Below are positions 7,823 through 56,384 of a DNA stretch of 64,000 nucleotides, in pieces (position 1 is the first letter of the stretch; each line of letters begins with the position of its first letter). Where the stretch lies: assembly GCF_032854445.1 (NCBI RefSeq), contig NC_088305.1, positions 2,483,001 through 2,547,000 of the forward strand, given 5' to 3'. This DNA comes from Liolophura sinensis (Eukaryota > Mollusca > Polyplacophora > Chitonida > Chitonidae). A program made the translations under genes and the position numbers. Below the pieces are notes generated by a model, which did not search any database, was not told the origin of the DNA, and saw only the letters and a list, made by a program, of their open reading frames with translations.

Positions 7823-7898
7823 TGAAGTAAATAGGGAGGGGGTGTTCAGAATATATGGCACCCTAGTTTATAATGGTGTCTACTTCCGTGCACTGACC

Positions 7899-27140: not shown

Positions 27141-27259
27141 AATTTCGGTACTAGAGCCGCCCCTTGAGGGAGCCACTAACCACCGTTACCATGGAGACGA
27201 CAGGGAAATCCCCCGACTCGGAGTCCACCTACATCTTGAAGGACAAGTCTCCGTCACAG
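27141..27259 (+). CDS. SLC38A11: SLC38A11-like exon 1 (start codon exon)
   Basis: The ATG at 27191 opens 23 codons (METTGKSPDSESTY...) ending in ACAG with donor gtccgt at 27260. This is a polar, probably cytosolic N-terminus, as expected before TM1 of an SLC38 protein. A pyrimidine-rich tract with acceptor cttcag ends at 27140, so bases 27141-27190 are probably 5' UTR and a further upstream non-coding exon is likely. The ATG context (ttaccATGG) is Kozak-like. The donor is weaker than the others in the gene, so this exon is less certain than exons 2-13. Confidence 0.7.
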
Positions 27260-30200
27260 GTCCGTTCTTACATCGTATTGATCGAACCACAGAAATGCTC
27301 ACCGTCCTAGTCTCTATATAAGTCAAATTTCTTATCTCCGATCAAATCAGTATATAAAACACAACTCTATATAGAGAGTTAAACCAGAACGTGCTGCTTC
27401 CTGTTCTAAGTCCTGGTGTCTGACCCCTTCTGAAGCAAGCTGTTCCCTTTCTAAGTCATGGTGTCTGACCCCTTCTGAAGCAAGCTGTTCCCTTTCTAAG
27501 TCATGGTGTCTGACCCGTTCTAAAGAATTCTGTCCCCTATTCTAAGTTATGGTGTCTGACCCTTTTCTCAAGCAAACTGTTCCCTTTCTAAATCATGTTG
27601 TCTGACGCGTTCTAAAGAATGCTGCCCCCTATTATAAGTCATGGTGTGTGACTCGTTCTAAAGAAAAGGGTCCCCTATTCTAAGTCATGGTGTCTGACCC
27701 ATTCTAAAGAATGCTGTCCCCTATTCTAAGTCACGGTGTCTGATCCGTTCTGAAGCAAGCTGTTCCCTTTCTAAGTCATGTATGGTGTCCGGCCCGTTCT
27801 GAAGGAAGCTGCTCCCTTTTCTAAGTCATGCGTGGTGTCCGGCCCGTTCTGAAGGAAGCTGCTCCCTTTTCTAAGTCATGCGTGGTGTCCGGCCCGTTCT
27901 GAAGCATGCTCTCCTCTTTTCTACATCATGGTGTCCGACATTAAGTAAAGTATGTTGTCCACTATTTCAAGTACTCCGGCCGTAAGTGGGAAGGTCTGTC
28001 AGCAACGTGCGGATTGTCGTCGGTTTCCTCGAGCTCTACCCGGTTTCCTCCCACCGTAATGCTAGCCGACGTCATATAAGTGAAATATTCTTGAGTACGG
28101 CGTAAAACACCAACCAAATAAATAAATAAAGCAGTAAATAAATGCATATTTTAAGTCATTTTGTCCGGCCCATTCTAAAGCATGCTGTCTCCTTTTCCCC
28201 AGGTACCCCATGGCTGGTAATCAGAACTACCGATCAAAGAAACAAAGTTACTTGTAGGCCTATTTAGTTGGTATAGATGAAGCATAAATGTCTTGGCTAT
28301 TTGTTGAAAACTGTTTCGCTTAATGACATGTCATTAAATACAAGCACTAGTTAGACGTCCTTTGACTTCAGAAGCTTTCTGGGTGACACATTGTTTTGAT
28401 CTTGCATCACGTATTACCACCATTCACCCCCAAAGTAGTGTCCACCCTATTGTCTATACGTTAACACGGCGGTCCCCTATTGAATACACAACCATCTTGT
28501 TTTCCCAAAAAGGGAATCCCTGTTAAGAGTCACGTCATATGGTCCATAGTTTCAAATTTGAATCATACGATCCAGCATTTGATTGGCCAGATTCCAGTTC
28601 CAGGTATGTTACGGCAAGAACAAAAAAAACACGTTAGATTTTTGCAGTAAAATGCTCGCATGAGATACATACTGAAACCAACTGCCTACAAACAGTGGAC
28701 TTTTTCCACTTCCGCTACCCAGATTACCAGGCAGCTCATTAAACATCTCCTCTCGGGTCGTAAGTGGGAAGGTCTTCCAGCATCCTGCGGATGGTAGTGG
28801 GTTTTCCCCGAGCTGTGCCCGGTTTCCACCCACCGTAATACTGACCGCCGTCGTATAATTGAAATATTCTTGAGTATGCCGTAAACGCCAATCAAATAAA
28901 TAAATAAATTAAACAGCTCACAGAAGTTTCTATAAGTGCCTCACGTTATACATTTAAGACGTTGTGGTTGTGATAAAAAATGTGGCACCCACGTAGGGGT
29001 CTATATTAGAACCTCAACCAAGGCAGCAGGTAGCCTATATTTTAGAATATTCCAGTGGTCACAAATATAGCTACTGTTATCTCTCACCTTATATGACGCC
29101 ACAGGACTCTGGTCACACCTCTCACATGACGGATGACTCACGCCACCTTGTGGAACCTGAATCAGACAAGAAGAAAATACAGAGTAACATACCCTTTACC
29201 AGCTTTAACTTCATTAACTCGATTGTGGGTTCCGGAATTATAGGTAAGGATCAAACTCTTACGAGTGCACTGCAGATGACGTCATTTTGTTATTTCATCA
29301 TGCATCACCGATTGTCGCGTGACGTCACTTCTTACCTAACTTAGTTATCAAGGGAAGTAGAGGGAACGTGAGCAAAAAATAGATGCCTATCCTTCTGAAG
29401 AGGATAATGCGTCTTTCCAAAATGGTTTCATGAACTCCAACGGACAGAAAATTGAAAAAGGAAACCGGCTCATGTTGGAGTATGATTTTATAACAGAAGG
29501 AAGCGTGTGGTTGTATTACCGACTGCAACAACCATCTTGCATTGTATCATACCAAACTTATTTCTGTGTCTAATGAAAAAGACTACATCATACAGAGTAA
29601 AACCAGATCAGCGACGACGGTGTGATAGTTGACTAATGGCCACACGTGAAATACGGCCTCTTGTCAATTTTACCTCGGCGTTTATCTAACATCACTTCCT
29701 GCCTTCTCCGTACCCTACTTCATCTCCGTGACCTCAGTCATTTGTCTCTGGATTTGACTTCCAATGCTAAAGGTTGATACGTTATGGTTTTGAACTCCAG
29801 AATTTCGAACTTATCTCTTCCTAACATTTTCGACGTTAAATAAATTTTGTAGCTATACTTATTACCTACACAATATGATTCGACCTCTTTCTATGTCCAT
29901 TACTGATTTAATGTAATTTTTAAAATAAGAATATATGATTGTGAATTCTTTACAGAACATTTCGAAAAGCTTCATAAATCTATAAATAAACGTCTTAAAC
30001 TTCATCATTTATCTCACGTCATTTTTTGTAGCAAAGTTCATACGCAGGAGGCAAATATAGTTTGCTTTTTAAATGAGAAAACCTTTATTAACATCATTTC
30101 CAAATGTTGCCATTTTGTGAGATAGGAGGGCTATTCGTGGATTCACGCTGCTATGCCTGACAATATGCCGTCAGCGTTTATTCGAATCTGCCTAACATTT

Positions 30201-33200
30201 ATGCAAAGAATGTTGTGTTTTTAAAATTTTATATTCAGAGTACGTTCACATCTCAGTAAAGTTCTTCGTTTTTCTAGGTATCCCTTACGCCATTAACCAG
30301 GCAGGGTTTGGACTCGGGATCCTGTTGCTCGTCCTCGTTGCCGTGGTTACAGGTAAGCTGCCATTTCATTGGTTAAGAGCGCCCGAAAATAGAATTGCCA
30401 ATAAGTAAACTTATGATTATATCATGGCAGTGTCTTTTCAAATGTTCCCTCCACGTGAATCGAATCAAAAATTTATTCATGGGCAGTTCTGTGGTAAGAG
30501 TTATTACTGCATATAAGTATATAAGATTTATGTGTTACTGGTACAACTCAGTTTTTATGAACTGATTATTAGTCATATTTGTGAAAATAAAAAAAAGTGA
30601 AAAAAAAGATAGTAAACAGCTTAGAGATAATCTGTAAATATTGTGAATTACTTGTTATATGCATGCCTTGACTTGGAAAAAATGCATGTCTTTATTGTAC
30701 ATAAAATCAAAGTAAACTTTCTCGGATTTTGACTTCATATATTTTCAGATAGTTAACCAGCTTTGGCAAATGTTGTTAGTATCGAAATGATGGAACAAAA
30801 TAAAACGAGGCCTTCATAGAGAAACACTTGAAGTATGTAGACGTAATACTTGCAGAACAAGGATCGAGCTAAACCAGCCTATAAATTACATACTCATTCG
30901 TTTGCTCTAACAACAGAAAAGGAAGCAAAAGATTTATGAGAACGTTTGTGTTCCAGATTGCTCAGTGCTGATGCTAATAGAAGCGGGTTACATTACCGGT
31001 CTGACGTCATACCAGGTAGGTGATGTCACGCACCGAGGTGACAGCAAACGTTTACACACTTACACACAGAAGATCACTATAGTCTGTTGCAAGAGTGGTA
31101 GGCCCATAGCTGTTACAGGATTCCTTCCAAATGTTTCTTCGAATGATTTGTTTGTTTTTTGCTGTTTGGAAAAGAATTCATTAGATGTGTGTTTCCGTGT
31201 AATCTGCAGCTTTTTTTCACTATATTTTCATTTTAAATGATACATGAAAAGGTACTCGGATATGATGAGTATAGTTTAGTTTCAGGAAAATGAAAAAAAA
31301 AAAGATATGTCAAAACATGCAGATTAGAACATTTTTTCATTTTCGAGGCATATTTTATATTTCATAATAACCCCTTTGTTTTAAAATGTTTTCCGTCAGT
31401 GACCTGGACTTTCCGAAATGACGTAATCGGTGAACATACAGGGAACGCGGATCGCTTAGCGCCCCCATTTCGGGTTTTCCTCCCAACGAAGTTATTTTCA
31501 CAGATATCACAGTTGACGTCACCACCGTAGGCTACTTAGTTCCGGACTGTTATTCCATATCCTAAAACTCCTTATTCAGAATTAAAAACAAAGCATTCCA
31601 TGTACCGTGTAACAATGTTTCATCCGTGTGCCTCAATTCACGGCTCTGTCCTGGCTCATTCGTTTACAGCGTTGGTCTCGCAGCAATCAATCGTCTCCTA
31701 ACCAACACGGCAGCTGTCTGAAACCGTTCCAATGGATAGGCTGCGATTTTAAGTTAGGATCTTTGTCATGTTCCTAGGGAAGGGCGGATGTTTCCTCTGA
31801 GCAATCTTGCCCCCCCCCCCCCACCCACTTTCACCGATCAGCCTCACTGCCGTCAAATCCCAGAAAAGTTGTCCAAGACTAGACCAATAAATGTTGGTTT
31901 TGTTCTTCCACTCCATGTTGTCATCAGTACACTACTTTCATTCCAGGATTCAGTCTTTAACCGTTATTTCATTACATAAATACTTACAATCTGTACCTTT
32001 TTTTTTGCATCATATGGACTTCAAGCAGTAACTTTTCAGAGATTTCCGTGTACGTTCTATTGAAAAGTCGATGGCTTTAAGTGGTCTTACTAACACTTCT
32101 TTTCTCAACGCCAGGATGTAGTGAGAACAGCGATGGGCAAGCCAGTGTTTTACATCCTTACCTTGCTACAATTCACCTACCCGTTTATCGGTATGTACAC
32201 ATGGTATTAGCTTACGTTATACCGTACAATTGCTGAGAACAGTTCTTTGGGAAACAACAGTACCGTAGAAAATACTGAGAAGTGCTATTGGAAAGCAACA
32301 GTTGGGTAAAGATAATGAGAACAGTGATGGAAAAACAATATTACGGCTCTATATAGTGTGAACAGTGATGGAAAACAATATTACGGTATTACATAGTGAG
32401 AATAGTGATCGAAAAACAACACTACGGTATTGCCAAGTGAGAATAGTGTTGGAAAAATAACATTACGGTATTAGATAGTGAGAATAGTGATGGAAAATAA
32501 CATGACGGTATTAGATAATGAGAATAGTGATGGAAAAACAACATTATTTTATTAGCTAGTGAGAACAGTGGTGGAAAAATAACATTATGGTATTAGATAG
32601 TGAGAATAGTGATCGAAAAATAACATTAGGGTATTAGATAGTGAGAATAGCAATGGAAAAATAACATTATGGTATTGGATAATGAGAATAGTGATGGAAA
32701 AACAACATTATTTTATTAGATAGTGAGAACAGTGGTGGAAAAATAACATTAGGGTATTAGATAGTGAGAACAGTGGTGGAAAAATAACATTAGGGTATTA
32801 GATAGTGAGAACAGTGGTGGAAAAATAACATTATTGTATTAGATAGTGAGAATAGTGATGGAAAAATAACATTATGGTATTGGATAATGAGAATAGCAAT
32901 GGAAAAATAACATTATGGTATTGGATAATGAGAATAGCAATGGAAAAATAACATTATGGTATTAGATAGTAAGAACAGTGGTGGAAAAATAACATTATGA
33001 TATAAGATAGTGAGAATAGTGATCGAAAAATAACATTAGGGTATTAGATAGTGAGAATAGTGATGGAAAAATAACTTTAGGGAATTAGATAGTGAGAACA
33101 GTGATGGAAAAACAACATTACGGCATTAGATAATGAGAATAGCAATGGAAAAATAACATTGTGGAATTAGATAGTGAGAACAGTGGTGAAAAAATAATAT

Positions 33201-36200
33201 TAGGGTATTAGATAGTGAGAATATTGATGGAAAAATAACATCGGGGTATTAGATAGTGAGAATGGTAATGGAAAAATAATATTACGGTCTGATGGACCCC
33301 ATTAATAGTCATATATAATATGGCATCCACGCACTTTTTTGTCTTATTTGTATACGTGTAAATTTGTTTCGGTTCAGAGAGGTTTCACATGGAATACACG
33401 ATCAGAGGGGTAGAACATGACATTTCTGGCATCACTTCACAGAGATATTGCCAGATCATCCACGGAATATTTATTTATTTATTTATTTGCATGAAGTTTT
33501 ATGTCGCTCTCAAGAATATTTCACTTATACGACGGCGAGCAGTTTTTTGGTGGGAGGAAACTGGACAGAGCCCGAAGAAAACCCACAACCATCGGTAGGT
33601 GGCTGGAAGACCTTCCCAAGAACCCATCGAATAGATCGCAATTGAATGGAAAGTTCACAGAAATGCCCTGAAGTAAATACACTATAATATGTGTGCTTTG
33701 TTTTCAGCGATGGTGAGTTACAATGTGATTATCGGGGACACCATCACCAGGCTGTTCGTGAGAATTGGCGGAGGTGAGACTGGGGCCTGAATTCAGATAA
33801 CTCAAAGTACCACCCATTTTAGGGTTAGAGGTTTGAATTTTGAATTGGGGAGGGGGCTGAAGGGGGGGGGGGGGGGGGCTGAAGGGGGGGGGGGGCATAA
33901 CTGACACAAAACTAAAATAAGTTGTATTCATATACACTGCAACTGTTTTCACCCGCCAGGGCAGTCTTTACACCTGGATCGTCATGAGTCTTCCATTCAC
34001 CCCCTGGCAAAGTTAAAAATTAAATCATAGATATGAACAGCAAAAAATGGAAAACTTAAAGGAAGACTATGGAAATCAATTGAATATTGAGAATATCAGA
34101 TGACAAATTCGAAAATTTCCGTGACGACTGGGAAAATTTCCGTGACAGATGGGAAAATTTCCGTGACAAATGGGAAAATTTCTGTGACAAATGGAAAATT
34201 CGCCTGACTATTAAAGGGTAAAGTTTGCTGAAAATGAAAAAATCACATAAAGAATATGACATCCAAATGACAAATGGGGAAATCAGATGAAACTGGTTAA
34301 AGTGGGCGAAAATATGAAATGAATTTTGGTTGAAGACGAAATATTACATGCCACATCCAAAACATTGTGGAGATCCGCTCCCGTTGATAAATCTGCCAAT
34401 TCAACAGTACAACCTGATAAATGGCTTCCACACCTCAGTGAAACTGCTCGCTCTTTCTTTCAGAATCCCTGAGTAACACTGTCCTCGGTAACCGTCAGTT
34501 TGTCATCCTCCTAGTCACTCTAGTCATCACCTTGCCCATCTCTCTCTACAAGAACATCGCCAGACTCAGCAAGGTAGGCCCTGGATCATGAAGCGGCCTT
34601 AGACTGAAGTCCAAATTTGTAGTCTTAACTTAAAATTGTGAGAACTGAGAGTTGTCTTGGTCCTTTATGACGAAAATGAAAATTAATGTTTAAGTTTAAA
34701 TTTAAGTTCAGAAGTAACACCACAGGTTAAGATTAAGTTTGACTGAAGCTCAAGTCGCTTCGTGATGCTGAGACCACAGTCACGATATGTATGGCCCTTT
34801 CTAGCTATACAGCAGGCGATCATTTGACTGTGTAGAGCACTGTAGCTACATGTAGTTCTCATTTACCACTGAATCTTAAGTAGCTCACTCCCATGGTATA
34901 GTGATGAGTTCAAAGCAATTTCTGTGTATGTTTGTTTGGGGTTTAACGTCGTACTGAACAATTTTTCAGTCATTTGACGACGAGGAGTCATTCGGTGTGT
35001 GTACACATACTGGGGCGATTATTGACCTGGAATTTTTTTATAGGTTGACAGCTGGTATGCGAATGTCTGTTTCGGTCTGGCAAGAACCTGCGGATGGTCG
35101 TGGGTTTCCCCCGGGCTCTGTCCGGTTTCCTACTACCATAATGCTAGCCGCAGTCGTATAAGTGAAATATTATTGAGTACGGTGTAGATCACCAACCAAA
35201 TAAATAAATGTCTGTTTCGACGCATATATTCTTGTGGCAGGATGAGTCCATGCCGTCAAAGTGCTGCAATCACTGAAATATCATGCTGAAGAGACTAGAC
35301 ATGACACCCCATGTAGTCACATTATACTGACACTGGGCCAACCAGTCATACTTTGCTCTAAACTCTCAGTGCTGAGCGCCAAGCGAATCAGCAGCAAGTA
35401 CCATTTTTTAAGTCTTTTGTATAACCCTATCTGGGTTTGATCCTGGGATCTCCCGAATTCGAAGCAATTCGTCAACCGCTAAATCAATCTACCCACCTCT
35501 TAGTCTATCGATCAACAAACCAATCAGCCAGTTCACTCCGCAGTGAACGAATAGACAAGTCAATCAGTCCTCCCCTCAATCAGTCAGTAAACTAATCAAC
35601 AGACGATCAAGACCTCCGTTAATCATTTAGCCCATCCGTTTTTCGTTTTCCCCATGCAGTGGGCCTTCCTGTCGATCTTCCTGGTCCTCGTCATCCTGGT
35701 CATGGTCCTCATCCGAATCCCAGATTTCGCACAGACTATGTAAGTGACTTCACACAGACTATGTAGGTGACTTGGCACAGACTATGTAAGTGACTTCATA
35801 CAGACTATGTAAGTGACTTCACACAGACTATGTAGGTGACTTGGCACAGACTATGTAAGTGACTTCACACAGACTATGTAGGTGACTTGGCACAGACTAT
35901 GTAAGTGACTTCACACAGATTATGTAAGTGACTTTACATAGACTATGCAAGTGACTTCACACAGACTATGTAAGTGACTTCACACAGACTATGTGACTAT
36001 GTAAGTGACTTCTCATAGACTATGTAAGTGACTTCATACAGACTATGTAAGTGACTTCACACAGACTATGTAAGTGACTTCACACAGACTATGTAGGTGA
36101 CTTGGCACAGACTATGTAAGTGACTTCACATGGACTATGTAAGTGACTTTACACAGAATATGTGATTTCACACAGACAATGTAGGTAACATACCACAGAT

Positions 36201-39200
36201 TGTATGCGTGATTTCATGCAGACTATACAAATGACTTCACGCAGACTACATGCATGTACATGAAAGTGACTTCACACAGACCATGTAAGCGACTTAGCAT
36301 CGTCTTTTGTTTCAGTCCAACCACTGCCGATTCCTTCACGTTTGCACGACCCAATGTGACCCAGGCTATAGGGATCATGGCTTTTGGTAAGTTTGTGATC
36401 TGTATATTTATGACCAGGTAATCAGTCTGTCTGGCTATCTGTCTGTATATTTATGTGTCTGTGTGTCTGTCTGTTTCTGCCGGTGTGTTTGTCCGTCTGA
36501 CTATCTGTCTGTCTCTCACTGTGTTGCTGTTCATCTGTCTCTCCAAGTGTATGTTTGTCTGTCTGTTTTTCTTCCCATCTTTATGTCTATCTCTTTGTCT
36601 CTTCATGTGTATGTTTTACCCGTCTGGCTTTTTGTCTTCCCATCTTTATGTCTATCAGGGGCCTCCGTGGCCCAGTTTGTTAGCGCGCTAGCGCAGCGTA
36701 ATGACCCAGGAGCCTCTCATCAATGCAGGCGCTATGAGTTCAAGTCCAGCTCATGCTGACTTCTTCTCCGACCGTACGTGGGAGTGAGTGAGTGAGTGCT
36801 TGGGGTTTAACGTCGTACTCTGCAATTTTTCAGTCATATGACGACGACCGTACGTGGGAAGGCCTGGCATAAACCTGCAGGTGGTCGTGGGTTTTCCCCG
36901 GGCTCTGCCTGGTTTCCTCCCACCATAATGCTGCCCGCCGTGGTATAAGTGAAATGCCTGTCTGCCTATCACCAGCGTCCATGTACCAACATAACGTGTC
37001 TATTTAACCGATGTCTGTTTGTCTGTCTGCAGCGAAAGTGCCTCCATAACGTGTCTAGTCAACCGCCTGTCTGTCCGTTTGTCTGTTCGTAGCGTTTATG
37101 TGTCTCCGTAACGTTTCTGTTTAACTGCCTCGCGGCATTCATGTGCCAGTTTAACCGCCTATCTGCAGCATTCGTGTGCGGCCTGACGTCTATTTAACCG
37201 CCTGTGTGTATGTGGTCAGCGTTCATGAGCCACCACAACGTGTCTATTTAACCGCCTGTCTATCTGTCCACAGCGTGCATGTGTCACCATAATGTGTCTA
37301 GTTAAGCGCCTGTCTGTCTGCCTCTGGCCAGCGTTCATGATCCACCACAACGTGTCTATTTAACAGCCTGTCTGTCTGCTTGTATTTCTGTTCGCAGCGT
37401 TCATGTGCCACCACAACGTGTTCCTGATCCACGCATCGCTGGAGAACAACACCTCGAAGCGCTGGAAAATCGTCACTCATTCCAGCTTTATCGTCTCTCT
37501 CGTCATTATGATGGTTATCGGCGTGGCTGGTTATGTTACCTTCAAGACCTACACACAAGGTAATAAACTATCTACCATCGCTGTGCCTTACGCAGGCTCC
37601 TATGGCGTCGTGGATAGGGCGCCTGCTTCCTATACGATAAGTCTGGGGTTCAGTTCCGAATAATAGTCATACTTAATACTTGTAAGATCAGGGAGAGATT
37701 GAACAAGGACGTCTCTGACTAAAGTAACAGTCTGAAATACGATCTTAAACTTTATTTTTCGGTTTTTATAAAGTAAAATTTTATCCGCCTCATCAGTCTT
37801 ATCTTAAGCCAAATGTATCCAAATTTCAACTTTCAGTTATGTTGAAAGTTACAAACAAACAAATCTTTTGTCTTTCTTGTTTCTCGTAGCAAAAAAATTT
37901 TATTACTTTTGAATTTTTTTTTCATTTTTGTTGAACTTTTCTCTTATACAATTGCCGTCGGTTTAAAGGTGAAGGTGCCTCGAGTAAACCACTGAGCTTT
38001 GGAAATTTACCTAGGGTGAGATAATGAACGTAAAATTGTGCCAAACTGTCAAACTATTAGCATCCATAAAATATCTTAATGCTTTGGACATTTGTTTGTT
38101 TGCTGTGAGTCGCATAAAAAAGGAAAGTGTCTGTCTATCTGTCACAACAGACACAAAAAATATGTAAACAGATAAATATTTGAAAAAACTCTATTTTTTT
38201 TTCTTTGACTTCTTTAGGTGGTTTTTTAAAAAAAAAATGAAAAAAAAAAAGGAAATGGACGACATATGTAAAAACTTTTTATTTGTTCCCGTGGCTACTT
38301 CAGGTGATCTGTTGGAGAGTTATTGTCACAGGGATGATCTGGCCAATACGGGGAGGTTTCTTTTCGCTGTCACCATCATGCTGACCTATCCAATCGAATG
38401 CTTTGTTACTAGAGAGGTGAGTGGAGGTTTCTTTTCGCTGTCACCATCATGCTGACCTATCCAATCGAATGCTTTGTTACTAGTGAGGTGAGTGGAGGTT
38501 TCTTTTCGCTGTCACCATCATGCTGACCTATCCAATCGAATGCTTTGTTACTAGAGAGGTGAGTGAACTCCATTCTCGTTGATAAATCTGCAAGAGCTTG
38601 CTTTATTGTGATATCCGCTGGTGCATACATTGTGAAAATGTACATTCCATCTCTATAATTGCATATTTTGTCTACTGCCTCCTGCAAGACTGAACGAATA
38701 TAACTTCTACTTCTGAAATTTCGCCTGAATCCTATAGCCAGTAAACATGTCTGCTTATAGGTTCATTCAACCCATGAACAAATTGGACGGTGTGAACCAA
38801 ATTCTAATCACCTAATCAACCAGCCAAATCAATCAGTCATTGTATCCAGCGGTTTTAATAATGAACAGTTGCAAAGATAAGATAGGATTTCATGGTCTAC
38901 AGAGAGAGAGAGTAACGCTTACCATACAATTCTTTAAAACATCACATGGCTGATGGTATTGACAATAAGTTAGATAGCGCTGTGCCCAGATTGCTTCGCC
39001 ACGGGACAAACAGATCCACTGGACTGTGATACTCGCCAATCGCAGTGCTTTCATGCGATATTCATTCTAGCGCGGAAAATAATTACGCCGTGAACAGAGC
39101 GAACACAAGATGCGACAGGCGGATCTTTCATCTGTCCCGAATTCAGTACATTGTTATATTACAATTTTCTACACAATTAAGCATAATTAGCCAGGACGGA

Positions 39201-42200
39201 AAAATAACCGAGATACCGGTAGTATTTGATGATATATTGTAGCCTTGTTAAACCTAACGTCCGCAGTTCCAAAGTACATGTAACTCGATTGTATCGTCGA
39301 CGTATATAGAGGCTGGTGATATTTTCTGGCGCCAGACAAGAGTCATAAATTGTACACAAACTGCAGGAAAGTTATTTATTAATTATCGCCTTACAAGTGG
39401 GTAAAATGAAGGAAGATAATTTTGGGGTGTGATATTGTGATACCCATTAAAATGACACACATGGCGTGAATGAAGCATTGGTGAAGTGCTCGGAAGGAAA
39501 TGATCACGGGTGAACGCACTAAGCTGGATAGCTGTTTCGTGTGGTGTGTCATTACGCATGCGCAGGACGGACCATACGTGGGATAATCAAAAGCACATTA
39601 TCCTTTATATCTATGTTACAACATTAGAGAAAAATTACCGCCACTTAATTGTATCAACGTAAACTAGGGATGCATTTGAAAATCACACTCATTAGACGTT
39701 AACAAGCGAGTCTGTATTATGTATGTTAGATAGTGTAGGTTGAATGGTAAAAATTGCTTTATACGATAACTTGTACTAAAGCGAATGTAATTACGGTTGA
39801 GAGAAAAAATATTTTAATGCCGGCATTAATTAATGTACCTGAAAAAAAAAATGCCATGAAATGCCTGTGATGAGATCATCATGGCCCATCAGGCACCGAA
39901 TAACGCTATTACACGAATGCTAGTTAATATGCGAAATGAACCACAAAAAATACTGCGAATACTTAACCCATGACATGAACCACTGAGAATACTGGGAATA
40001 CTTAACACACGAAACGAACCACTAAGAATACTGGGAATACAAGAGTACTGGTAAGACTTAATCCACGAAATGGGCCACTAAGAATACTGGGAAGACTTAA
40101 TCCACGAAATGGGCCACTAAGAATACTGGGAATACTTAACCCACGAAACTAACCACTCAGAATACTGGGAATACTTAACCCACGAAACGAACCACTAAAA
40201 ATACTGGGAATACTTAACCCACGAAACGAACCATTAAGAACACTGGGAATACTTAACCCACGAAACGAACCACTAAGAATATTGTGAATACTTAATCCAC
40301 GAAATGAGTCACTATGAACACTGGGATATTTAATCCACGAAATGGGCCGCTAAGAATACTGGGAATCTTAGAGTACTGGAAATACTTAACCCACGAAACG
40401 AACAACTAAGATTCCTGGGAATACTTAACCAACGAAACGAACGACTAAGAATACTGGGAATACTTAACCAACGAAACGAACCACTAAGAATATTGAGAAT
40501 ACTTAATCCACGAAATGGGCAACTGAGAATACTGGGAATACTGGAGTACTGGGAAGACTTAATCGACGAAATGAACCAGTAAGAATACTGGGAATACTTA
40601 ACCCACGAAACGAACCACTAAGAATATTGAGAATACTTAATCCACGAAATGGGCAACTGAGAATACTGGGAATACTGGAGTACTGGGAAGACTTAATCGA
40701 CGAAATGAACCAGTAAGAATACTGGGAATACTTAACTCACGAAATGAACCACTGAGAGTACTGGAAATACTTAACCCACGAAACGAACCACTAAGAATTC
40801 TGGGGATACTTAACCAACGAAACGAACCACTGAGAATATTCAGAATACTTAATCCACGAAATGAGTCACTAAGAATACTGGGAATACTTAACTGACGAAA
40901 GGAACCACTGAAAGTCATGGGAATACCTAACTAATGAAACGAATCACTAAAAATACTGGGAATACTTAACTCACGAAACGAACCACTAAGAATACTGGGA
41001 AACCCTCTGTCGTTATTTACAGGATTTATTCACATGTAACGGGGCATTTTCAGTTATTTTCATACGTTTTGCTATAACAAGGAAACCGGAGTGGTTGGCC
41101 CGGTGTTAGTATTATGTGACTGGGTGGGGTGTCATGTCAGATATCTTCAGCATGACACTTCAGTGGCGCCAGCACTTTGGTGGCATGGACTCGCCCTGTC
41201 GCAAGAAGACAGAGTACATGTGCAGACACCTTTTGACTCCTCGTCAACATGTGACTGAAATATTGTTAAGTACGACGTAAAAACCCAAGCATACATAATT
41301 TTTGCTAATTTTCTGGTACAATATGCGCTGTTATACCACGAAAAGAAATTTACAGCTTTCAACTTACATTGCTTTGATGAAGAAGTTTTAATCACCACCA
41401 AAGTCCCAAATTTGCATGTTGATATGTGCAATTACATGTACATTATGAGATATTGAATTGATTAGACGGTGTCCGAAAAGGGGAATAAATCTTGTAAATG
41501 ATAAATCGAAAGTTACATATCTGTGGAATGTCGAAGCGGAAAAAAGTTCTCAAAATAGAAATATTAATAATAAAGCTCCTTTCAAAATGACGAAATTTTT
41601 AGGTACAAAAATTAAAAACAACTTGATTTTTTATAGTTCAACGCGTATTTTATGATTTAAATAAACATCCTGAGGATCCATTCCTCCAATGATCTCCAGG
41701 CTCTTACAGGCGTCAACGTGGTTTTACATTCCCTGGCGATCACCTGTCTGTCACCAGTGGCGTACATAATAAGCTCGTTCGCACGTGGGAAAGTTCGTCA
41801 GCCCGATGATTCTCCATAGTCACACGAGGAAAAGCTGGTCAGGCCGGCGATTTTCCATGTTTACATGTGGGAAAGTTCTTAAGGCCGGTGAATCTCCATG
41901 GTCGCACGAGGAAAATTTCGTCAGGCCGGTGATTTTTCATGTTTACACGTGGGAAAGTTCGTCAGGCCGGCGATTCTCCATGGTCACAAGTGGGAAGGTT
42001 TGTCAGGCCGGCGATTCTCCATGGTTACACCTGGGAAAGTTCGTCAGGCCGGTGGGAAAGTTCGTCAAGTTCCTTGGCGATCACCTGTCTGTCACCAATG
42101 GCGTACATAATAAGCTCGTTCGCACGTGGGAAAGTTCGTCAGGCCGGTGATTCTCCATGGTCAAATGTGAGAAAGTTCGTCAGGCCGGTGATTCTCCATG

Positions 42201-45200
42201 TTTACACGTGGGAAAGTTCGTCAGGCCGGCGATCCTCCATGACTACACATGGGAAAGTTCGTCAGACCGATGATTACACGTGGGAAAGTTCGTCAGGCCG
42301 GGGATTCTCCATGTTTACACGTGGGAAAGTTCGTCAGGCCGGCGATCCTCCATGACTACACATGGGAAAGTTCGTCAGACCGATGATTACACGTGGGAAA
42401 GTTCGTCAGGCCGGGGATTCTCCATGTTTACACGTGGGAAAGTTCGTCAGGCCGGCGATCCTCCATGACTACACATGGGAAAGTTCGTCAGACCGATAAT
42501 TACACGTGGGAAAGTTCGTCAGACCGGGGATTCTCCATGTTTACACGTGGAAAAGTTCGTCAGGCCGGGGATTCTCCATGTTTACACGTGGGAAAGTTCG
42601 TCAGGCCGTCGATCCTCCATGACTACACATGGGAAAGTTCGTCAGACCGATGATTACACGTGGGAAAGTTCGTCAGGCCGGGGATTCTCCATGGTCACAC
42701 GTGGGAAATTTCGTCAGGCCGGTGGGAAAGTTCTTCAGGCCGGTGATTCTCTATGGTTTTACCACCCCGACAAAGAACTGACTGCTGTCCTACAAGAGAA
42801 CATCAGTGAAATGAGTGAATAAATTCATAGTAGGCCTACATCAAGTTTTATTACTTGGTAAAGTTGTACTCGATGACGCTACGTAAATGGAAGTGCCTTT
42901 GAGATCGTCAGATTACACCAGATGAATAAATGCAATCCAATCATCTATCTCCGTGTGACGTTTCTTTCAAACAAAAAACAAATGATAGGACAAATGAACA
43001 GCAGTCTGTCTGATAACAAGTAAATCTGGTTCTAAAGCGTGATTTTACCCCACATGAATTTCACGCTGTCTTATTTGCTGTGTATTTCATCAGGTCGTGG
43101 AGTTGTCTCTGTTCGCCAGCCGTCAGCCCTCTCCGACCCTCCGACACATCGCTGTCACCGTCACCATCGCCATTCTGGCCGCTGCCCTCTCCATTACCAC
43201 CGACTGTCTGGGCATTGTACTGGAGTTCAATGTGAGTAGCCATGAGTATGACCTTGTTTAATAACAGTATGTCTCAATATGACCTAGTTTATTGTGAGTA
43301 TGTCTGGGCATGCTCTACTTTAATACGGGTAGTTGTGAACATAACCTAGTTTAATGTGGGTAGATGTGAGCATGACCTAGTTTAATGTGAGTAGGTCTGA
43401 GCTTGGCCTAGTTTAATGTCGGTAGATCTGAGCTTGACTTACTTTTATGTGAACAGATGTGAGCATGAGCTAGTTTAATGTGGGTAGTTGTGAACATGAC
43501 CTAGTTTAAGGTGGGTAGATGTGAGCATGGTCTAGTTTAAGGTGGGTAAGTAAGAGAATCACCTTAGTTTAATGCGAGTAAATAACCTAGTTTAGTGTGA
43601 GTATGTCAGAGTATGACGTGGTTTAATCTGAGAAATTCTTGAGTACGGCGTAAAACACCAATCAAATAAATAAATAAGTTTAATGTGAGTAGGTGTGAGC
43701 ATGATTTAGATTAATGTGAGTAGATCTAAGGATGACTTAATTTAATGTGAGTAGCTCTGAGTTTCACCTAGTTGTCTGAGTATATATATATATATATGTA
43801 TATATATAAGCGTCATGTCCGACATTCGTATACCATTCGTAGTCTGTAAAGGGCGTTCTAAGTTGATAATCGCAAGATCCATTTCCAAAACAACGTTTAA
43901 CACTAGCTCCCAAAGACAAAGGTATGTAAGAAATTATACAAATAGGAAATAAAGCCGGTAACATACAAGAGAGAAGCGGCCATCAGTTTTCAATGATGCT
44001 GGGCAGGCAGTGGATATTCCAGGCATGATGTCCATATCAAAGTTCAAATTCGTAGTCCATGATCTAGCTTACTGTGGGTAGGTCTGAGTATGTCCTAGCT
44101 AAATATGAGTAGGTCTGAGCATGCCCTAGCTAAATATAAGTAGGTCTGAGCATGACCTATTTTAAGTGAGTAGTTGTTAGTATGAGATAGTTTAATGTGA
44201 GTATGCTAAAAATGTCGTTGTTAGATGCGAGTTTGACCTAGGTTAATGAGAGTATGTCTGGATGTGTTCTTGTTTATAAGAGTATATGAATATACATACC
44301 ATTGTCTGATGGGAATACATCTGAGAATGTTCTAGATTAACATGGGTGTATCTGAGTATCGCAAGTATATCTGAGTATGACCTAGGTTTGTGTGAGTATG
44401 TTTAATTAAGTTTAATGGGAGTATGTCGAAGTATGGTGTAGTTTAATGACATGAAAATGTCAGTGTGATCCAGATTTATTTGAGTATATCTGAGTATGGC
44501 CTTCTTTAATGCGAGTATGACTCACATTCATGTGAGTATATTTGAGTATGGTATAATTTTATGGGAGTATATCAGAGTACATGTATGTCATGTTTTATGG
44601 TGAATGTATGTTATTATGACATGCTGTAATGTGAGTATATTTGAGTATGGCCGTTTAATGTGAGTATATCTAAGCATATTTTACTTTTATGTGGAATATA
44701 ACTCAGTACGTCACAGTTTAATGTGAGTATATGCGAGTTGTCATGGTTAAATATGAGAATCATGTGAGTTTACCTGAGTATGACCAAGTTTAATGTGAGT
44801 TTATCTGAGTATGACCAAGTTTAATGTGAGTTTACCTGAGTATGACCAAGTTTAATGTGAGTTTACCTGAGTACGACCAAGTTTAATGTGAGTTTACCTG
44901 AGTATGACTAAGTTTAATGTGAGTTTACCTGAGTATGACCAAGTTTAATGTGAGTTTACCTGAGTATGACCAAGTTTAATGTGAGTTTACCTGAGTATGA
45001 CCAAGTTTAATGTGAGTTTACCTGAGTATGACCAAGTTTAATGTGAGTTTACTTGGGTATGACCAAGTTTAATGTGAGTTTACCTGAGTATGACCAAGTT
45101 TAATATGAGTTTACCTGAGTACGACCAAGTTTAATGTGAGTTTATCTGAGTACGACCAAGTGTAATGTGAGTTTACCTGAGTATGACCAAGTTTAATGTG

Positions 45201-46000
45201 AGTTTACCTGAGTATGACCAAGTTTAATGTGAGTTTACCTGAGTACGACCAAGTTTAATGTGAGTTTACCTGAGTATGACCAAGTTTAATGTGAGTTTAC
45301 CTGAGTACGACCAAGTTTAATGTGAGTTTACCTGAGTATGACCAAGTTTAATGTGAGTTTACCTGAGTACGACCAAGTTTAATGTGAGTTTACTTGGGTA
45401 TGACCAAGTTTAATGTGAGTTTACCTGAGTATGACCAAGTTTAATGTGAGTTTACCTGAGTATGACCAAGTTTAATGTGAGTTTATCTGAGTACGACCAA
45501 GTTTAATGTGAGTTTACCTGAGTATGACCAAGTTTAATGTGAGTTTACCTGAGTACGACCAAGTTTAATGTGAGTTTACTTGGGTATGACCAAGTTTAAT
45601 GTGAGTTTACCTGAGTATGACCAAGTTTAATGTGAGTTTATCTCAGTATGACAAATTAAGTTTGCTGTGAATATGCCGGCTTACTGAGATTATGATCTTA
45701 TTCACATGAACAACTCCTATCTTATTTTGTCGGTAGGGCGTGCTTGTGGCCTCCCCCCTGGCCTTCGTCATCCCCTCTATCCTGGTCATCAAGCTAAGGG
45801 GAGAGCCATACTTCAGCTGGAGGAATGTCGTCCCCACCCTCGTTTTTCTCTTCGGCGTCTTCGTCTCGGTGGTGGGCACTGTCATGGCCATCATGAACGT
45901 GGTACAATCAAATACGTGTAACCATGGCGCCGAGCCGGTCTATTGTTACCCGGAGGTAGGAAGGAACCACACCGTTCCATATTTCAGTTACTCTGTGTAG
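27191..46000 (+). CDS. SLC38A11: SLC38A11-like sodium-coupled neutral amino-acid transporter, 13 coding exons
   Basis: Exons joined at GT-AG sites: 27191-27259, 29105-29243, 30278-30352, 30957-31015, 32115-32190, 33708-33773, 34464-34573, 35660-35739, 36316-36386, 37398-37559, 38304-38416, 43094-43231, 45737-46000. They total 1422 nt, giving 473 residues plus TAG with every phase matching. Seen: a polar N-terminus (residues 1-52), then hydrophobic segments; the substrate-site motif GSGIIGIPYA at 65-74 in TM1; NQAGFGLGILLL at 76-87; ITLPISLYKNIARL at 183-196; FMCHHNVFLIHASLE at 250-264; TYPIECFVTRE at 330-340; TTDCLGIVLEFNG at 375-387. Known: these are hallmarks of the AAAP/SLC38 family, 11-TM carriers that move neutral amino acids with sodium; the pattern is closest to SLC38A11 as I remember it. 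Substrate is inferred. An acceptor-like site at 27140 suggests an upstream non-coding exon. SLC38A7/8-like is the main alternative. Confidence 0.87.
27395..28205. repeat. 40-50-bp minisatellite in intron 1, split by a SINE-A
   Basis: About 14 units of tctaagtcatggtgtctgac then ccgttctgaagcaagctgtt and ccctt. A SINE-A at 27972-28139 interrupts it; one more unit (ttaagtcattttgtccggcc) follows. Confidence 0.88.
27972..28139 (+). mobile_element. SINE-A inside the intron-1 array
   Basis: tccggccgtaagtgggaagg, gtttcctcgagctctacccg, gagtacggcgtaaaacacca and an aaataaataaataaa tail; head missing. Confidence 0.87.
28206..28756. other. Unique intron-1 DNA
   Basis: No array, SINE or exon-like sequence. 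Confidence 0.45.
28757..28915 (+). mobile_element. SINE-A in intron 1, head missing
   Basis: gggtcgtaagtgggaaggtc, ccgagctgtgcccggtttcc, cttgagtatgccgtaaacgc and an (AAAT)n tail. Confidence 0.86.
29105..29243 (+). CDS. SLC38A11: SLC38A11-like exon 2 (N-terminal tail and start of TM1)
   Basis: Acceptor ccacag ends at 29104 and donor gtaagg starts at 29244; the exon leaves phase 1. It encodes residues 24-69 and the first base of Gly70: an acidic/basic tail, then NIPFTSFNFINSIVGSGII. The GSG triplet (65-67) is the unwound part of TM1 that in this fold lines the amino-acid and sodium sites. Confidence 0.9.
29585..29695 (+). mobile_element. Dispersed repeat D (single copy of the 48-bp array source) in intron 2
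   Basis: tacagagtaaaaccagatca, gcgacgacggtgtgatagtt, then gactaatggccacacgtgaa and atacggcctcttgtcaattt. The same sequence occurs at 63155-63262. The first ~45 bp are the unit of the arrays at 5690-6085 and 60345-61935; the second part appears three times inside the latter. Confidence 0.75.
29696..30277. other. Unique intron-2 DNA
   Basis: AT-rich, no feature seen. Confidence 0.4.
30278..30352 (+). CDS. SLC38A11: SLC38A11-like exon 3 (TM1 end, TM2)
   Basis: Acceptor ttctag ends at 30277 and donor gtaagc follows. The exon completes Gly70 and encodes IPYAINQAGFGLGI then LLLVLVAVVT (residues 71-94). The N-Q-A-G-F motif between TM1 and TM2 is strongly conserved in SLC38 carriers. Confidence 0.92.
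30353..32114. other. Introns 3 and 4 (apart from exon 4)
   Basis: Unique AT-rich intron sequence around exon 4 (30957-31015). A run of 13 C lies at about 31810-31822 in intron 4. No array or SINE seen. Confidence 0.45.
30957..31015 (+). CDS. SLC38A11: SLC38A11-like exon 4
   Basis: Acceptor ttccag ends at 30956 and donor gtaggt starts at 31016. It encodes Asp95 to Gln114 (CSVLMLIEAGYITGLTSYQ). The segment corresponds to the end of TM2 and the G-x-x-(S/T)-Y-Q loop common to this subfamily. It leaves phase 0. Confidence 0.9.
32115..32190 (+). CDS. SLC38A11: SLC38A11-like exon 5
   Basis: Acceptor gccag ends at 32114 and donor gtatgt starts at 32191. Residues 115-139 (DVVRTAMGKPVFYILTLLQF then TYPFI) form the start of TM3. 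The first ~22 nt resemble the unit of the array that fills the following intron; see the finding on intron 5. Confidence 0.9.
32215..33290 (+). repeat. 40-41-bp minisatellite in intron 5, about 26 units
   Basis: Unit attagatagtgagaacagtg then atggaaaaataacattaggg, with variants. The part tagtgagaacag-t-gatgg matches the first bases of exon 5 (tagtgagaacag-c-gatgg), 19 of 22 positions, and the preceding attag aligns with the acceptor AG. This suggests, less strongly than for the other cases, that it came from an exon boundary. Confidence 0.88.
33466..33622 (-). mobile_element. SINE-A in intron 5, minus strand, head missing
   Basis: tatttatttatttatttgca, then tttatgtcgctctcaagaat, ggtgggaggaaactggacag and gaagaccttccca. 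Confidence 0.82.
33708..33773 (+). CDS. SLC38A11: SLC38A11-like exon 6
   Basis: Acceptor tttcag ends at 33707 and donor gtgaga starts at 33774. Residues 140-161 (AMVSYNVIIGDTITRLFVRI then GG) match the SLC38 signature M-x-x-Y-x-x-I-x-G-D-T at the end of TM3. A G-run-rich stretch follows closely in the intron. Confidence 0.92.
33846..33895 (+). repeat. G-run-rich tract in intron 6
   Basis: Two runs of about 17 and 12 G separated by ctgaa, preceded by ggggaggggg. Likely G-quadruplex-forming on the coding strand of the pre-mRNA, about 75 bp past the exon 6 donor. Confidence 0.85.
34112..34200 (+). repeat. 23-bp tandem repeat in intron 6, about 4 units
   Basis: tgggaaaatttccgtgacaa with small changes, four units, then decay. 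Confidence 0.88.
34464..34573 (+). CDS. SLC38A11: SLC38A11-like exon 7
   Basis: Acceptor tttcag ends at 34463 and donor gtaggc starts at 34574. Residues 162-198 include NRQFVILLVTLVITLPISLY then KNIARLSK: TM4 followed by the conserved P-(L/I)-S-L-Y-(R/K)-N-I-A motif. It leaves phase 0. Confidence 0.93.
34588..34780. mobile_element. MITE-like element just after exon 7
   Basis: Left end ggatcatgaagcggccttag then actgaagtc; right end gactgaagctcaagtcgctt then cgtgatgctgag. The ends are inverted repeats of about 26 bp with several mismatches. AT-rich centre, no coding. It begins about 14 bp after the exon 7 donor. Confidence 0.55.
34925..35500 (-). mobile_element. SINE-B (minus) interrupted by family C and a SINE-A, intron 7
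   Basis: Minus-strand SINE-B starts at ggggtttaacgtcgtactga, gacgaggagtcattcggtgt, is broken near 35015 by family C (gcgattattgacctgga, agctggtatgcgaatgtctg) and resumes near 35230 (tcttgtggcaggatgagtcc, aaatatcatgctgaagagac) to a tRNA-like head (gggtttgatcctgggatctc). The family C piece is in turn split by a SINE-A at 35075-35206. Confidence 0.7.
35075..35206 (+). mobile_element. SINE-A with 13-bp target-site duplication
   Basis: 5'-truncated SINE-A (ctgcggatggtcgtgggttt ... accaaccaaataaat) flanked by aatgtctgtttcg at 35062-35074 and 35207-35219. The exact 13-bp direct repeat shows it moved by target-primed retroposition. Confidence 0.85.
35660..35739 (+). CDS. SLC38A11: SLC38A11-like exon 8, whose donor seeds an array
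   Basis: Acceptor atgcag ends at 35659. Residues 199-224 (WAFLSIFLVLVILVMVLIRI then PDFAQT) are a very hydrophobic TM5. The exon ends ACTAT and the donor gtaagt starts at 35740. The last ~14 exon bases with the donor are the unit repeated about two dozen times in the intron, so splicing must pick the first of many near-identical donors. Confidence 0.92.
35721..36300 (+). repeat. 23-24-bp minisatellite made of the exon 8 donor site
   Basis: Unit cacagactatgtaagtgact then tca or tgg. The first unit is the end of exon 8 itself (CGCACAGACTAT, then gtaagtgactt). About two dozen units follow, most with an intact donor-like ACTAT-gtaagt or gtaggt. In the exon's frame each copy reads ATG TAA or ATG TAG, so use of any later copy ends translation at once. 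Confidence 0.93.
36316..36386 (+). CDS. SLC38A11: SLC38A11-like exon 9
   Basis: Acceptor tttcag ends at 36315 and donor gtaagt starts at 36387. It encodes Ile225 to Phe248 (PTTADSFTFARPNVTQAIGI then MAF), equivalent to the F-A-(K/R)-P-N-x-x-Q-A-x-G-x-M-(S/A)-F motif of SLC38A11 and related carriers. Confidence 0.93.
36426..36655 (+). repeat. (CTGT)n-rich degenerate microsatellite
   Basis: ctgtctgtctgt runs with interspersed ttcttcccatctttatgtct, itself repeated. The tract ends at the SINE-A. Confidence 0.85.
36656..36955 (+). mobile_element. SINE-A with nested 62-bp SINE-B end, intron 9
   Basis: Full head (gcctccgtggcccagtttgt, agcgcgctagcg, gagttcaagtccag) and body; the (AAAT)n tail is replaced at gtggtataagtgaaat by the next array. 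The element is interrupted at 36784-36845 by gtgagtgagtgagtgcttgg ... cagtcatatgacgac, the reverse-oriented 3' end of SINE-B, flanked by the 14-bp duplication gaccgtacgtggga at 36770-36783 and 36846-36859. Confidence 0.88.
36956..37421 (+). repeat. 51-66-bp array made of the exon 10 acceptor and exon start
   Basis: Decayed units of cgcctgtctgtctg...cag, then cgttcatgtgccaccacaac and gtgtctatttaac. AG boundaries matching the true acceptor (37397) occur at 36975, 37032, 37092, 37168, 37219, 37273 and 37331; an eighth copy near 37133 has lost the AG. Read in the exon frame, each of the seven AG-bearing copies runs into TAA within about 10 codons (usually at the end of GTG TCT ATT TAA). Confidence 0.9.
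37398..37559 (+). CDS. SLC38A11: SLC38A11-like exon 10, whose acceptor seeds an array
   Basis: Acceptor ttcgcag ends at 37397 and donor gtaata starts at 37560. Residues 249-302 start AFMCHHNVFLIHASLENNTS and continue through a TM segment to GYVTFKTYTQ. F-x-C-H-H-N is diagnostic for this subfamily. Seven or eight decayed copies of the acceptor plus the first ~24 exon bases lie upstream in intron 9. Confidence 0.94.
37597..37665 (+). mobile_element. tRNA-like sequence in intron 10
   Basis: gtcgtggatagggcgcctgc resembles an A box and ctggggttcagttccga a B box. The cloverleaf does not close convincingly, so it is more likely a SINE head than a working tRNA. Confidence 0.35.
37666..38303. other. 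Unique intron-10 DNA
   Basis: AT-rich with A- and T-runs near 37890-37930 and 38190-38250. No further feature. Confidence 0.4.
38304..38416 (+). CDS. SLC38A11: SLC38A11-like exon 11, 3' end triplicated with its donor
   Basis: Acceptor cttcag ends at 38303; donor gtgagt starts at 38417. It encodes GDLLESYCHRDDLANTGRFL to TYPIECFVTRE (residues 303-340), with the Y-C-x-x-D-D-L and T-Y-P-x-E-C-F motifs of the family. The last 63 nt plus donor are repeated twice more downstream (period 71), giving three candidate donors after 38416, 38487 and 38558. Only the first keeps the frame into exon 12. Confidence 0.93.
38354..38566 (+). repeat. 71-bp triplication of exon 11's 3' end with its donor
   Basis: aggtttcttttcgctgtcac starts at 38354, 38425 and 38496; each copy runs to tactagagaggtgagtg. 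Copies differ at single bases (copy 2 has tagtgag), so the event is recent or homogenised. Copy 1 is the real exon end. Extending into copy 2 meets TGA at 38453-38455. Confidence 0.95.
38570..39935. other. Unique intron-11 DNA
   Basis: AT-rich, no exon or SINE seen. Confidence 0.45.
39936..41010. repeat. 39-bp minisatellite in intron 11, about 27 units
   Basis: Unit ccactaagaatactgggaat then acttaacccacgaaacgaa. A larger block (tattgagaatacttaatcca ... gagtactgggaagacttaat) occurs near 40490-40580 and 40620-40710, so there is higher-order duplication. Confidence 0.93.
41082..41305 (+). mobile_element. SINE-B, 5'-truncated, intron 11
   Basis: aaggaaaccggagtggttgg, gtgactgggtggggtgtcat, catgacacttcagtggc, catggactcgccctgtcgca, gactcctcgtcaacatgtga and the end taagtacgacgtaaaaaccc-like bases. 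Confidence 0.82.
41306..41725. other. Unique intron-11 DNA
   Basis: No supportable feature. Confidence 0.4.
41726..42760 (+). repeat. ~39-bp minisatellite in intron 11 with nested block repeats, about 25 units
   Basis: Unit acacgtgggaaagttcgtca then ggccggcgattctccatg. A longer piece (tggcgatcacctgtctgtca, ccaatggcgtacataataag, ctcgttcgcacgtggg) occurs at 41731-41795 and 42073-42130. A three-unit block (gatcctccatgactacacat ... gaccgatgattacacgtggg) recurs from 42230 to 42700. Confidence 0.92.
43094..43231 (+). CDS. SLC38A11: SLC38A11-like exon 12, whose donor seeds an array
   Basis: Acceptor catcag ends at 43093; donor gtgagt starts at 43232. Residues 341-386 run VVELSLFASRQPSPTLRH, then TM and ITTDCLGIVLEFN. 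D-C-L-G-I-V-L-E-x-N is highly conserved in SLC38A7/A11-type proteins. The 31 bp starting at 43226 (TTCAAT plus donor) is the first unit of a 2.4-kb array in intron 12. Confidence 0.94.
43630..43680 (+). mobile_element. SINE-A 3' end inside the intron-12 array
   Basis: gaaattcttgagtacggcgt then aaaacaccaatcaaataaat. A 5'-truncated copy of about 50 bp; the array resumes at gtttaatgtgagtagg. Confidence 0.87.
43786..44065 (-). mobile_element. Family C element inside the intron-12 array
   Basis: After a (TA)n run, cattcgtataccattcgtag, ttctaagttgataatcgcaa, aaagccggtaacatacaaga, cagtggatattccaggcatg. This is the least interrupted family C copy in the window and serves to recognise the split copy at 24556-25122. 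Confidence 0.65.
45737..46000 (+). CDS. SLC38A11: SLC38A11-like exon 13 (C-terminus)
   Basis: Acceptor cggtag ends at 45736. Residues 387-473 start GVLVASPLAFVIPSILVIKL and contain the last two TM segments (FLFGVFVSVVGTVMAIMNVV) and a short tail with CNHGAEPVYCYPE, close to the C-H-G-x-E-x-x-Y-C-x-P pattern of SLC38A11. As read through, it ends at TAG 45998-46000. An internal donor (GAG then gtagga, after 45955) would allow a different last exon. Confidence 0.9.
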   Translation, partial: GVLVASPLAFVIPSILVIKLRGEPYFSWRNVVPTLVFLFGVFVSVVGTVMAIMNVVQSNTCNHGAEPVYCYPEVGRNHTVPYFSYSV

Positions 46001-46122
46001 ATGAAACGATTGGAGATCCCGAATACGAGTGCATGCTTCGGGATTACTCGGCAGTTGTCGGAAAATGTTTCCTTGTGAAGGTCACCTAAATCTGATATTT
46101 TCCGCTTTTGTGCTTGTTCCAG

Positions 46123-46167
46123 GATTTGGTCAGACGTAACTGGCTGAATGTCCTCCTCAGATCTTAA
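46123..46167 (+). CDS. SLC38A11: Possible alternative last exon of the SLC38A11-like gene
   Basis: A good acceptor (pyrimidine tract, then ttccag ending at 46122) is followed by 14 codons DLVRRNWLNVLLRS and TAA. It joins in frame to the donor after 45955 in exon 13, giving a C-terminus YCYPEDLVRR... in place of YCYPEVGRNH.... By coincidence both products have 473 residues. Which form is used cannot be told from the sequence. Confidence 0.4.
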   Translation, partial: DLVRRNWLNVLLRS

Positions 46168-50545: not shown

Positions 50546-51090
50546 ATTGTGCAGTTCACACCAGACGACACCATATATTTTAGTGCTGTCTCAGATGACA
50601 CCCGATGTGGCTCCCCCCCCCCACCCCACATTTTAATGCTGTCACACTGATACAGTGTACTTGACACTAGATGTGACACCACACCTTTAGCTGTCTAGCT
50701 GAGACGTGCGGTTGACACCAGATGTGACACCATACATTTTAGCGATCTCACTGAGACATTATGGTTAACACCAGATATGATACCACACGTTTTAGCGCTC
50801 TCATTGAGACATTATGGTTAACATCAGATATGACACCGCTCGTTTCAGCGCTCTCATTGAGGCATCAAGTGGTTGACCCCAGATATGACCAGACATTTTC
50901 ATGCGGTTTCCCTGGAACATAGTGCACTTGACACCAGACGTGACACCACACGTTTTGGCTCTGTCTCTCTTAAACATCGTGCAGACACCACCAGATGTGA
51001 CACACTACACGTTTTTGTCCTTTCTTTTTTATACAACGTTCGGGTATCACAACATGTGACACCACATTTTAACGCTGTTTCACGGACACA
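50546..51090 (+). repeat. ~60-bp degenerate minisatellite, about 8-9 units
   Basis: gacaccagatgtgacaccac then acgttttagcgctctcattg and agacattatggttaac. Unit lengths vary and divergence is high, so this is an older array. Confidence 0.85.
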
Positions 51091-56362: not shown

Positions 56363-56384
56363 TCCACTACTCACCAGAACCTGA

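Follow-up and report, generated by a model that had tools for sequence, protein, structure and literature searches.

Minisatellites spanning splice junctions in a chiton genome resemble the mirages of amphioxus

In a transporter gene of the chiton Liolophura sinensis, the acceptor of exon 10 and the donors of exons 8, 11 and 12 each fall within the outermost unit of a tandem array. That four splice junctions are so placed had been read from the sequence before. The phenomenon is general in this genome, since 13 more arrays of this kind were found in 57 other gene regions, at approximately one in 40 exon ends (judged by eye), in myosin, SNF-transporter and kinesin genes. The anatomy of the arrays, their recurrence and their retention of decoy splice signals are documented below. 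We consider them, with fair but not full confidence, to be mirage-like minisatellites, seeded by chance in a minisatellite-rich genome and tolerated since the exon-proximal splice site still works.

The window analysed is a stretch of 64,000 nt from assembly GCF_032854445.1 (NC_088305.1, positions 2,483,001-2,547,000, forward strand). The assembly was first published under the name L. japonica (PMC11068029), later corrected to L. sinensis (PMC12441733). The gene occupies 27191-46167 of the window on the plus strand and has 14 coding exons: 27191-27259, 29105-29243, 30278-30352, 30957-31015, 32115-32190 (exons 1-5), 33708-33773, 34464-34573, 35660-35739, 36316-36386, 37398-37559 (exons 6-10), 38304-38416, 43094-43231, 45737-45955 and 46123-46167 (exons 11-14). 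All 13 introns are GT-AG, giving 26 splice junctions where 24 had been counted earlier, and the exons join into one open frame of 473 aa. The predicted protein matches Pfam Aa_trans (PF01490, E = 6.6e-64) over residues 55-438, and its relatives in the PDB are the proton-coupled amino acid transporter 1 and the sodium-coupled neutral amino acid transporter 9; the name "SLC38-type amino-acid transporter" is our own reading of the sequence.

Junction-spanning copies in this gene were detected by local blastn, and all arrays named here are on the plus strand of the gene. Array 1 (35723-36299) has a 23-bp unit made of the last 17 nt of exon 8 plus the donor and fills nearly the whole of intron 8, which shrinks from 576 to 113 bp once arrays are collapsed to one unit; GT is kept in 17 of 20 aligned copies. 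The acceptor of exon 10 belongs to Array 2 (36955-37420), whose unit of about 54 bp combines the intron end with the first ~23 nt of the exon. Its copies lie upstream in intron 9, and the four that could be aligned all keep AG and are all weaker than the true acceptor. Array 3 (38352-38565) consists of three 71-bp copies, each with the last 65 nt of exon 11 and the first 6 nt of intron 11; these are 98% alike, and Array 3 is considered recent because of this near-identity. A 301-bp probe across Array 3 has a single matching place in the genome (one haplotype). Array 4 (43224-45652), at the donor of exon 12, has a 31-bp unit containing the last ~8 nt of the exon plus the donor. It is old and diverged near the exon and homogeneous at 44762-45652; its copies mostly have 65-78% identity to the junction copy, and 35 of 42 aligned ones keep GT. 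Tandem Repeats Finder (TRF) alone reports two of the 14 arrays in the gene as spanning, and the other two spanning arrays require more sensitive alignment. A single weak match at acceptor 11 (70% over 50 bp), accepted at a looser cut-off only, was left out of the count.

Other arrays in the gene touch no junction. The 46-bp array in intron 1 (27404-27939) lies 144 bp from the donor, and three arrays in intron 11 (39932-41001, 41782-42052 and 42118-42745) are ordinary intronic minisatellites. A 41-bp array in intron 5 (32310-33288) is weakly like the start of exon 5 and was not counted; exon 5 was rejected as its seed, with 16 of 18 bases shared, a window-based P of 0.01 uncorrected for many comparisons, and a position on the wrong side of the exon.

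Several other repeats in the window were noted, all but the last of them by eye. The 41-bp unit at 41782-42745 is similar to a section of a recurrent SINE-like element (~27980-28130, 28757-28912 and 35085-35210), and this array may have been seeded from a mobile element. The 48-bp arrays at 5713-6084 and 60348-61929 apparently share one unit in opposite orientations, and a single degenerate copy of it lies in intron 2 of the transporter gene (~29590-29640); the unit appears to be a dispersed repeat family going tandem. The units at 1325-2035 and 50664-50889 likewise have a common core in opposite orientations, again like a dispersed repeat going tandem. At 53839-56362 a 95-bp unit with donor- and acceptor-like motifs is repeated 26.6 times and adjoins a possible minus-strand exon (~56355-56600).

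For the sample of other genes, the genome was searched with PF01490, PF00083, PF00063, PF00209 and PF00225, which gave 24, 11, 81, 109 and 132 matches, respectively. Stretches were picked by density of exon matches with the repeats unseen, 44 initially and a further 13 once an initial result had been obtained, a selection biased towards compact genes. The resulting 57 regions cover 299 kb and contain 218 of the 357 Pfam matches (188 + 30), 87 arrays, and 265 exons with 530 ends. The exon figure is that after merging and includes 50 intervals added by paralogue comparison; two intervals, one of these 50 and one of the 188 matches, were removed as copies inside arrays. In the sample, exon ends were derived from profile matches, paralogue comparison and splice-site weights. 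Twelve exon intervals were placed manually at a stage when the arrays were already known, and one in stretch L046 likewise later; these settings mostly push the spanning count up, though L019 was lost through them. Separately from this sample, eight matches to PF14830 (Haemocyan_bet_s), presumably a molluscan domain, were seen in one cluster of the genome; they agree with a chiton as the source and were among the grounds for rejecting amphioxus.

Among the sampled stretches, donors are spanned in L005 (121-bp unit), L006 (two donors, with 25/66-bp and 31-bp units), L010 (140 bp), L029 (73 bp, kinesin), L037 (71 bp) and L046 (34 bp), and acceptors in L004 (32 bp), L009 (95 bp), L015 (53 bp), L016 (70 bp), L027 (27 bp) and L031 (54 bp). 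Together with the transporter gene this makes 17 spanning arrays, ten at donors and seven at acceptors. Three kinds of candidate were dropped: L019, which is spanning by the automatic rule through a profile read-through; an exon-internal 18-bp repeat at 2171-2209 of L006; and exon copies inside arrays at L009 1004-1072 and L029 7709-7831. The last of these is a longer partial exon copy within the L029 array itself (5984-8160, units of kinesin exon end plus donor), which may be a raw instance of the gain of an exon or intron. In L002 the same myosin exon occurs twice in tandem (596-700 and 1692-1787), both copies open; the pair probably represents mutually exclusive exons in a gene for muscle myosin.

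In all 17 arrays every aligned copy lies on the intron side. The original prediction saw in this sidedness, which leaves the exon intact, a possible sign of selection. It is forced by geometry and gives no evidence of selection: whenever a junction-spanning segment is duplicated in tandem, the outermost copy stays joined to the original exon, and with exons set by homology the extra copies read as intron. The state of the copies was counted in 16 of the 17 arrays, L037 being excluded (its junction had been entered one base off). As in mirages, many but not all copies keep GT/AG (203 of 232 aligned copies, a count biased towards retention, as the copies were found by similarity); 128 of these 203 equal or exceed the true site in score, and use of 163 of the 232 (70%) would shift the reading frame. 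Such retention, scores and frame shifts would be expected of unselected copies of a functional site. In four arrays (those at acceptor 10, in L010, in L015 and at the second donor of L006) every decoy scores below the true site, which could reflect some selection against decoys.

A general origin of intronic arrays by decay of junction arrays finds no support. The best splice-like motif lies mostly on the sense rather than the antisense strand in the 17 spanning arrays (donor 15 vs. 2, acceptor 13 vs. 4). In the 65 non-spanning arrays it shows no such bias (donor 32 vs. 33, acceptor 34 vs. 29), and most of them are therefore not former junction arrays, despite motifs passing fixed thresholds in eight sense and four antisense cases.

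The original prediction held that chance seeding in about 19 kb would rarely hit junctions this often. This understates chance, with 33.7% of the intron DNA of the transporter gene (5,923 of 17,555 bases) already in TRF arrays. By TRF, two of the 14 arrays in the gene are spanning, compared to 0.86-0.94 expected. Four of its 26 junctions lie in local repeats by more sensitive alignment, compared to 169 of 520 random intron points. For 66 sampled introns with profile-continuous ends, local repeats span 4 of 132 junctions, 162 of 1320 intron points drawn at random and 26 of 940 points in exons; junctions lie in such repeats less often than random points of introns do. The share of spanned junctions in the transporter gene exceeds that elsewhere (4/26 vs. 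13/530 exon ends, P = 0.0035), in a comparison where the gene had been chosen for its arrays among the ~28,000 genes of the published assembly (PMC11068029).

It had also been proposed to compare array frequencies at junctions with those after shuffling of array positions. Piloted on the 57 regions, this comparison yields an excess (1.5-2 times, 12-13 arrays vs. 6.4-6.9) that is small and uncertain (P = 0.007-0.11, depending on the null). In the null model each array was reduced to a single unit, and its seed could fall anywhere with equal probability except wholly within an exon. With raw matches the automatic count gives 10 spanning arrays of 81 (4.85 expected, P = 0.016), one of the ten being the L019 read-through; with hand-set exon ends it is 12 of 80 (5.92 expected, P = 0.013), and over all 57 stretches 13 of 87 (6.74 expected, P = 0.013). 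Raising the score cut-off to 100 gives 13 of 69 (6.35 expected, P = 0.007). Restricting placement to within 400, 200 or 100 bp of exons yields ratios of 1.64, 1.85 and 1.52 (P = 0.045, 0.014 and 0.054), and combining the cut-off of 100 with placement within 400 bp yields 1.73 (P = 0.027). When an exon share of at least 12 nt is demanded, 10 arrays remain against 5.69 expected (P = 0.050), or against 6.69 with local placement (P = 0.11). After correction of the L037 junction 12 arrays rather than 13 are spanning, because L037 then shares only 6 nt of exon (6.77 expected, P = 0.031). Weighting placement by GC moves this expectation only to 6.92 (P = 0.036), and GC content was rejected as an explanation for the surplus; in pooled form it is 0.408 in non-spanning array units, 0.369 in the background and 0.455 in exons, and taken array by array it is 0.385 vs. 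0.375. With hand-set ends, seeds 0-50 bp from exons number 9 (10.9 expected), those at 200-400 bp 25 (17.7 expected) and those beyond 400 bp 12 (22.3 expected). The excess of junction-spanning arrays is weak and unproven, and it gives no more than a hint of a junction-specific mechanism.

Such a mechanism would make splice junctions preferred birth sites of minisatellites, with R-loops, paused polymerase or splice-signal motifs leading to slippage or breaks. We regard this as unlikely. In its favour are the excess in stretches not chosen for arrays (13 vs. 6.74, and 12 vs. 6.92 when weighted by GC) and its focal character, with 12 spanning arrays where 6.0 are expected and only 9 seeds at 0-50 bp where 10.9 are expected. 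The numbers are small, however, with P = 0.045-0.11 in four of seven other settings; the dozen hand-set exon intervals were set with the arrays in view, the automatic excess includes the read-through, and the involvement of both donors and acceptors argues against a single sequence motif. If this explanation were true, introns would be lengthened from their ends. There is a small chance that junctions are true hot spots of minisatellite birth in animals as distant as amphioxus and chitons, where a process linked to transcription or splicing would feed duplication. A regulatory load of decoys, in which splicing to array copies would give frame-shifted, degraded transcripts and thereby tune expression, is much less credible. 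The retained GT/AG signals and the frequent frame shifts would suit it, and alternative transcripts are frequent where human repeats lie at exon-intron boundaries (PMC2812944); this human report led us to rate the regulatory explanation slightly higher and chance seeding slightly lower than before. On the other hand, 70% frame-shifting copies is close to the two thirds expected if the frame were not under selection, neither the kinds of gene hit (transporters, myosin, kinesin) nor their repeat units are related to one another, and the amphioxus reports take mirages to be spliced normally (PMC3087553, PMC3902484). We give hardly any credence to an artefact of assembly or exon prediction. The three nearly identical exon 11 copies might conceivably stem from a duplication made in assembly, and the exon ends of the sample were derived from profiles, paralogues and splice-site weights; against this stand the PacBio HiFi reads of the published assembly (PMC11068029), a transporter protein that stays open across 13 introns with its PF01490 match, and the diverged copies of Arrays 1, 2 and 4, which are unlike assembly copies.

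Chance seeding with tolerance is the explanation that we favour. Short segments would be tandemly duplicated all over the genome, some seeds including an exon end with its splice site, and the arrays would grow by slippage or unequal exchange. The exon-proximal copy would keep the original exon and splice site, and the extra copies would become intron as long as the spliceosome uses that site. Selection would remove seeds inside exons and arrays that cause mis-splicing, and the arrays that persist would be neutral. A spanning count within about twofold of uniform seeding is consistent with this account. Against it are the 1.5-2-fold surplus over the uniform null in stretches picked without sight of repeats and the lack of such a surplus among seeds 0-50 bp from exons. 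The high share of spanned junctions in the transporter gene (picked for its arrays), the four arrays whose decoys all score below the true site, and the eight sense against four antisense motifs over fixed thresholds in non-spanning arrays also weigh on that side. By analogy with the amphioxus data, splicing at the chiton arrays is probably correct. In human segmental duplications, by contrast, 66% of the intron changes made by repeats are accompanied by transcripts in which the repeat stays in the exon (PMC2812944), and splicing neutrality is therefore not assured.

It had been stated that no named system of this kind was known; there is one, and human boundary repeats have also been published (PMC2812944). 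Minisatellite-like duplications of intron-exon boundaries in amphioxus globin genes were called mirages after the Adh3 case, other amphioxus loci were said to have them, and intron gain from mirages was proposed (PMC3087553). PGBD5 was added later, with troponin C cited (PMC3902484), so that the known mirage genes in these two papers are Adh3, troponin C, the globins BflGb6 and BflGb9, and PGBD5. Adh3 data and globin RT-PCR were taken to mean that mirages leave regular splicing undisturbed (PMC3087553). Like the chiton arrays, mirages are tandem repeats across exon-intron boundaries, at donors and acceptors, and many but not all of their copies keep AG/GT (PMC3087553, PMC3902484). Their units measure 10-72 bp in Adh3, 150-160 and 157 bp in the globins, and 60 and 108 bp in PGBD5 (PMC3087553, PMC3902484); the chiton units, of the same anatomy, measure 23-140 bp. 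The systems differ in host, a mollusc here and a cephalochordate there, and in scale, with 13 of 530 exon ends in the chiton sample and single genes in the amphioxus reports. Common descent of the two is not expected, because the units differ from junction to junction.

In human, minisatellites at exon-intron boundaries of recent segmental duplications make new introns (PMC2812944). These variable internal tandem repeats lengthen introns, as the chiton arrays do, but they create novel introns via cryptic splice sites and are described for recent paralogues only (PMC2812944). Intron gain by tandem duplication, with a potato (RdRp) and a fission-yeast case, resembles the chiton arrays in that a duplicated splice signal adds intron sequence (PMC4974935). 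The chiton arrays lengthen existing introns, whereas gain of the Rogers type makes a new one. The Rogers model is said to be one of intron gain by tandem duplication, Zhuo et al. in 2007 reportedly dealt with introns from tandem arrays, and Gao and Lynch in 2009 reportedly dealt with intron gain of this kind. Ordinary intronic minisatellites share the tandem growth within introns; the chiton units add an exon end and splice site. A full-text literature search, in which subscription journals are thinly covered, found, among the papers listed, no mollusc report of junction-spanning minisatellites, and the available parts of an abalone calmodulin paper (PMC6171432) and a cone-snail paper (PMC3862624) held nothing relevant.

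The chiton arrays thus belong to a known kind, the mirages, and are common in this genome; chance seeding with tolerance is their most likely origin, and a junction hot spot is less likely. What is new is the mollusc host and the frequency, about 13 in 530 exon ends. The two amphioxus papers, in the parts available, treat mirages as a matter of amphioxus or cephalochordates (PMC3087553, PMC3902484). The frequency of junction arrays is a quantity measurable genome-wide, by which chance seeding can be weighed against a junction hot spot. These arrays are also a warning for gene annotation, and they provide natural cases in which the spliceosome must pick one of dozens of near-identical splice sites in a row. 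The occurrence of the same anatomy in a chiton, at about one in 40 sampled exon ends, suggests that minisatellite-rich genomes make junction arrays as a matter of course.
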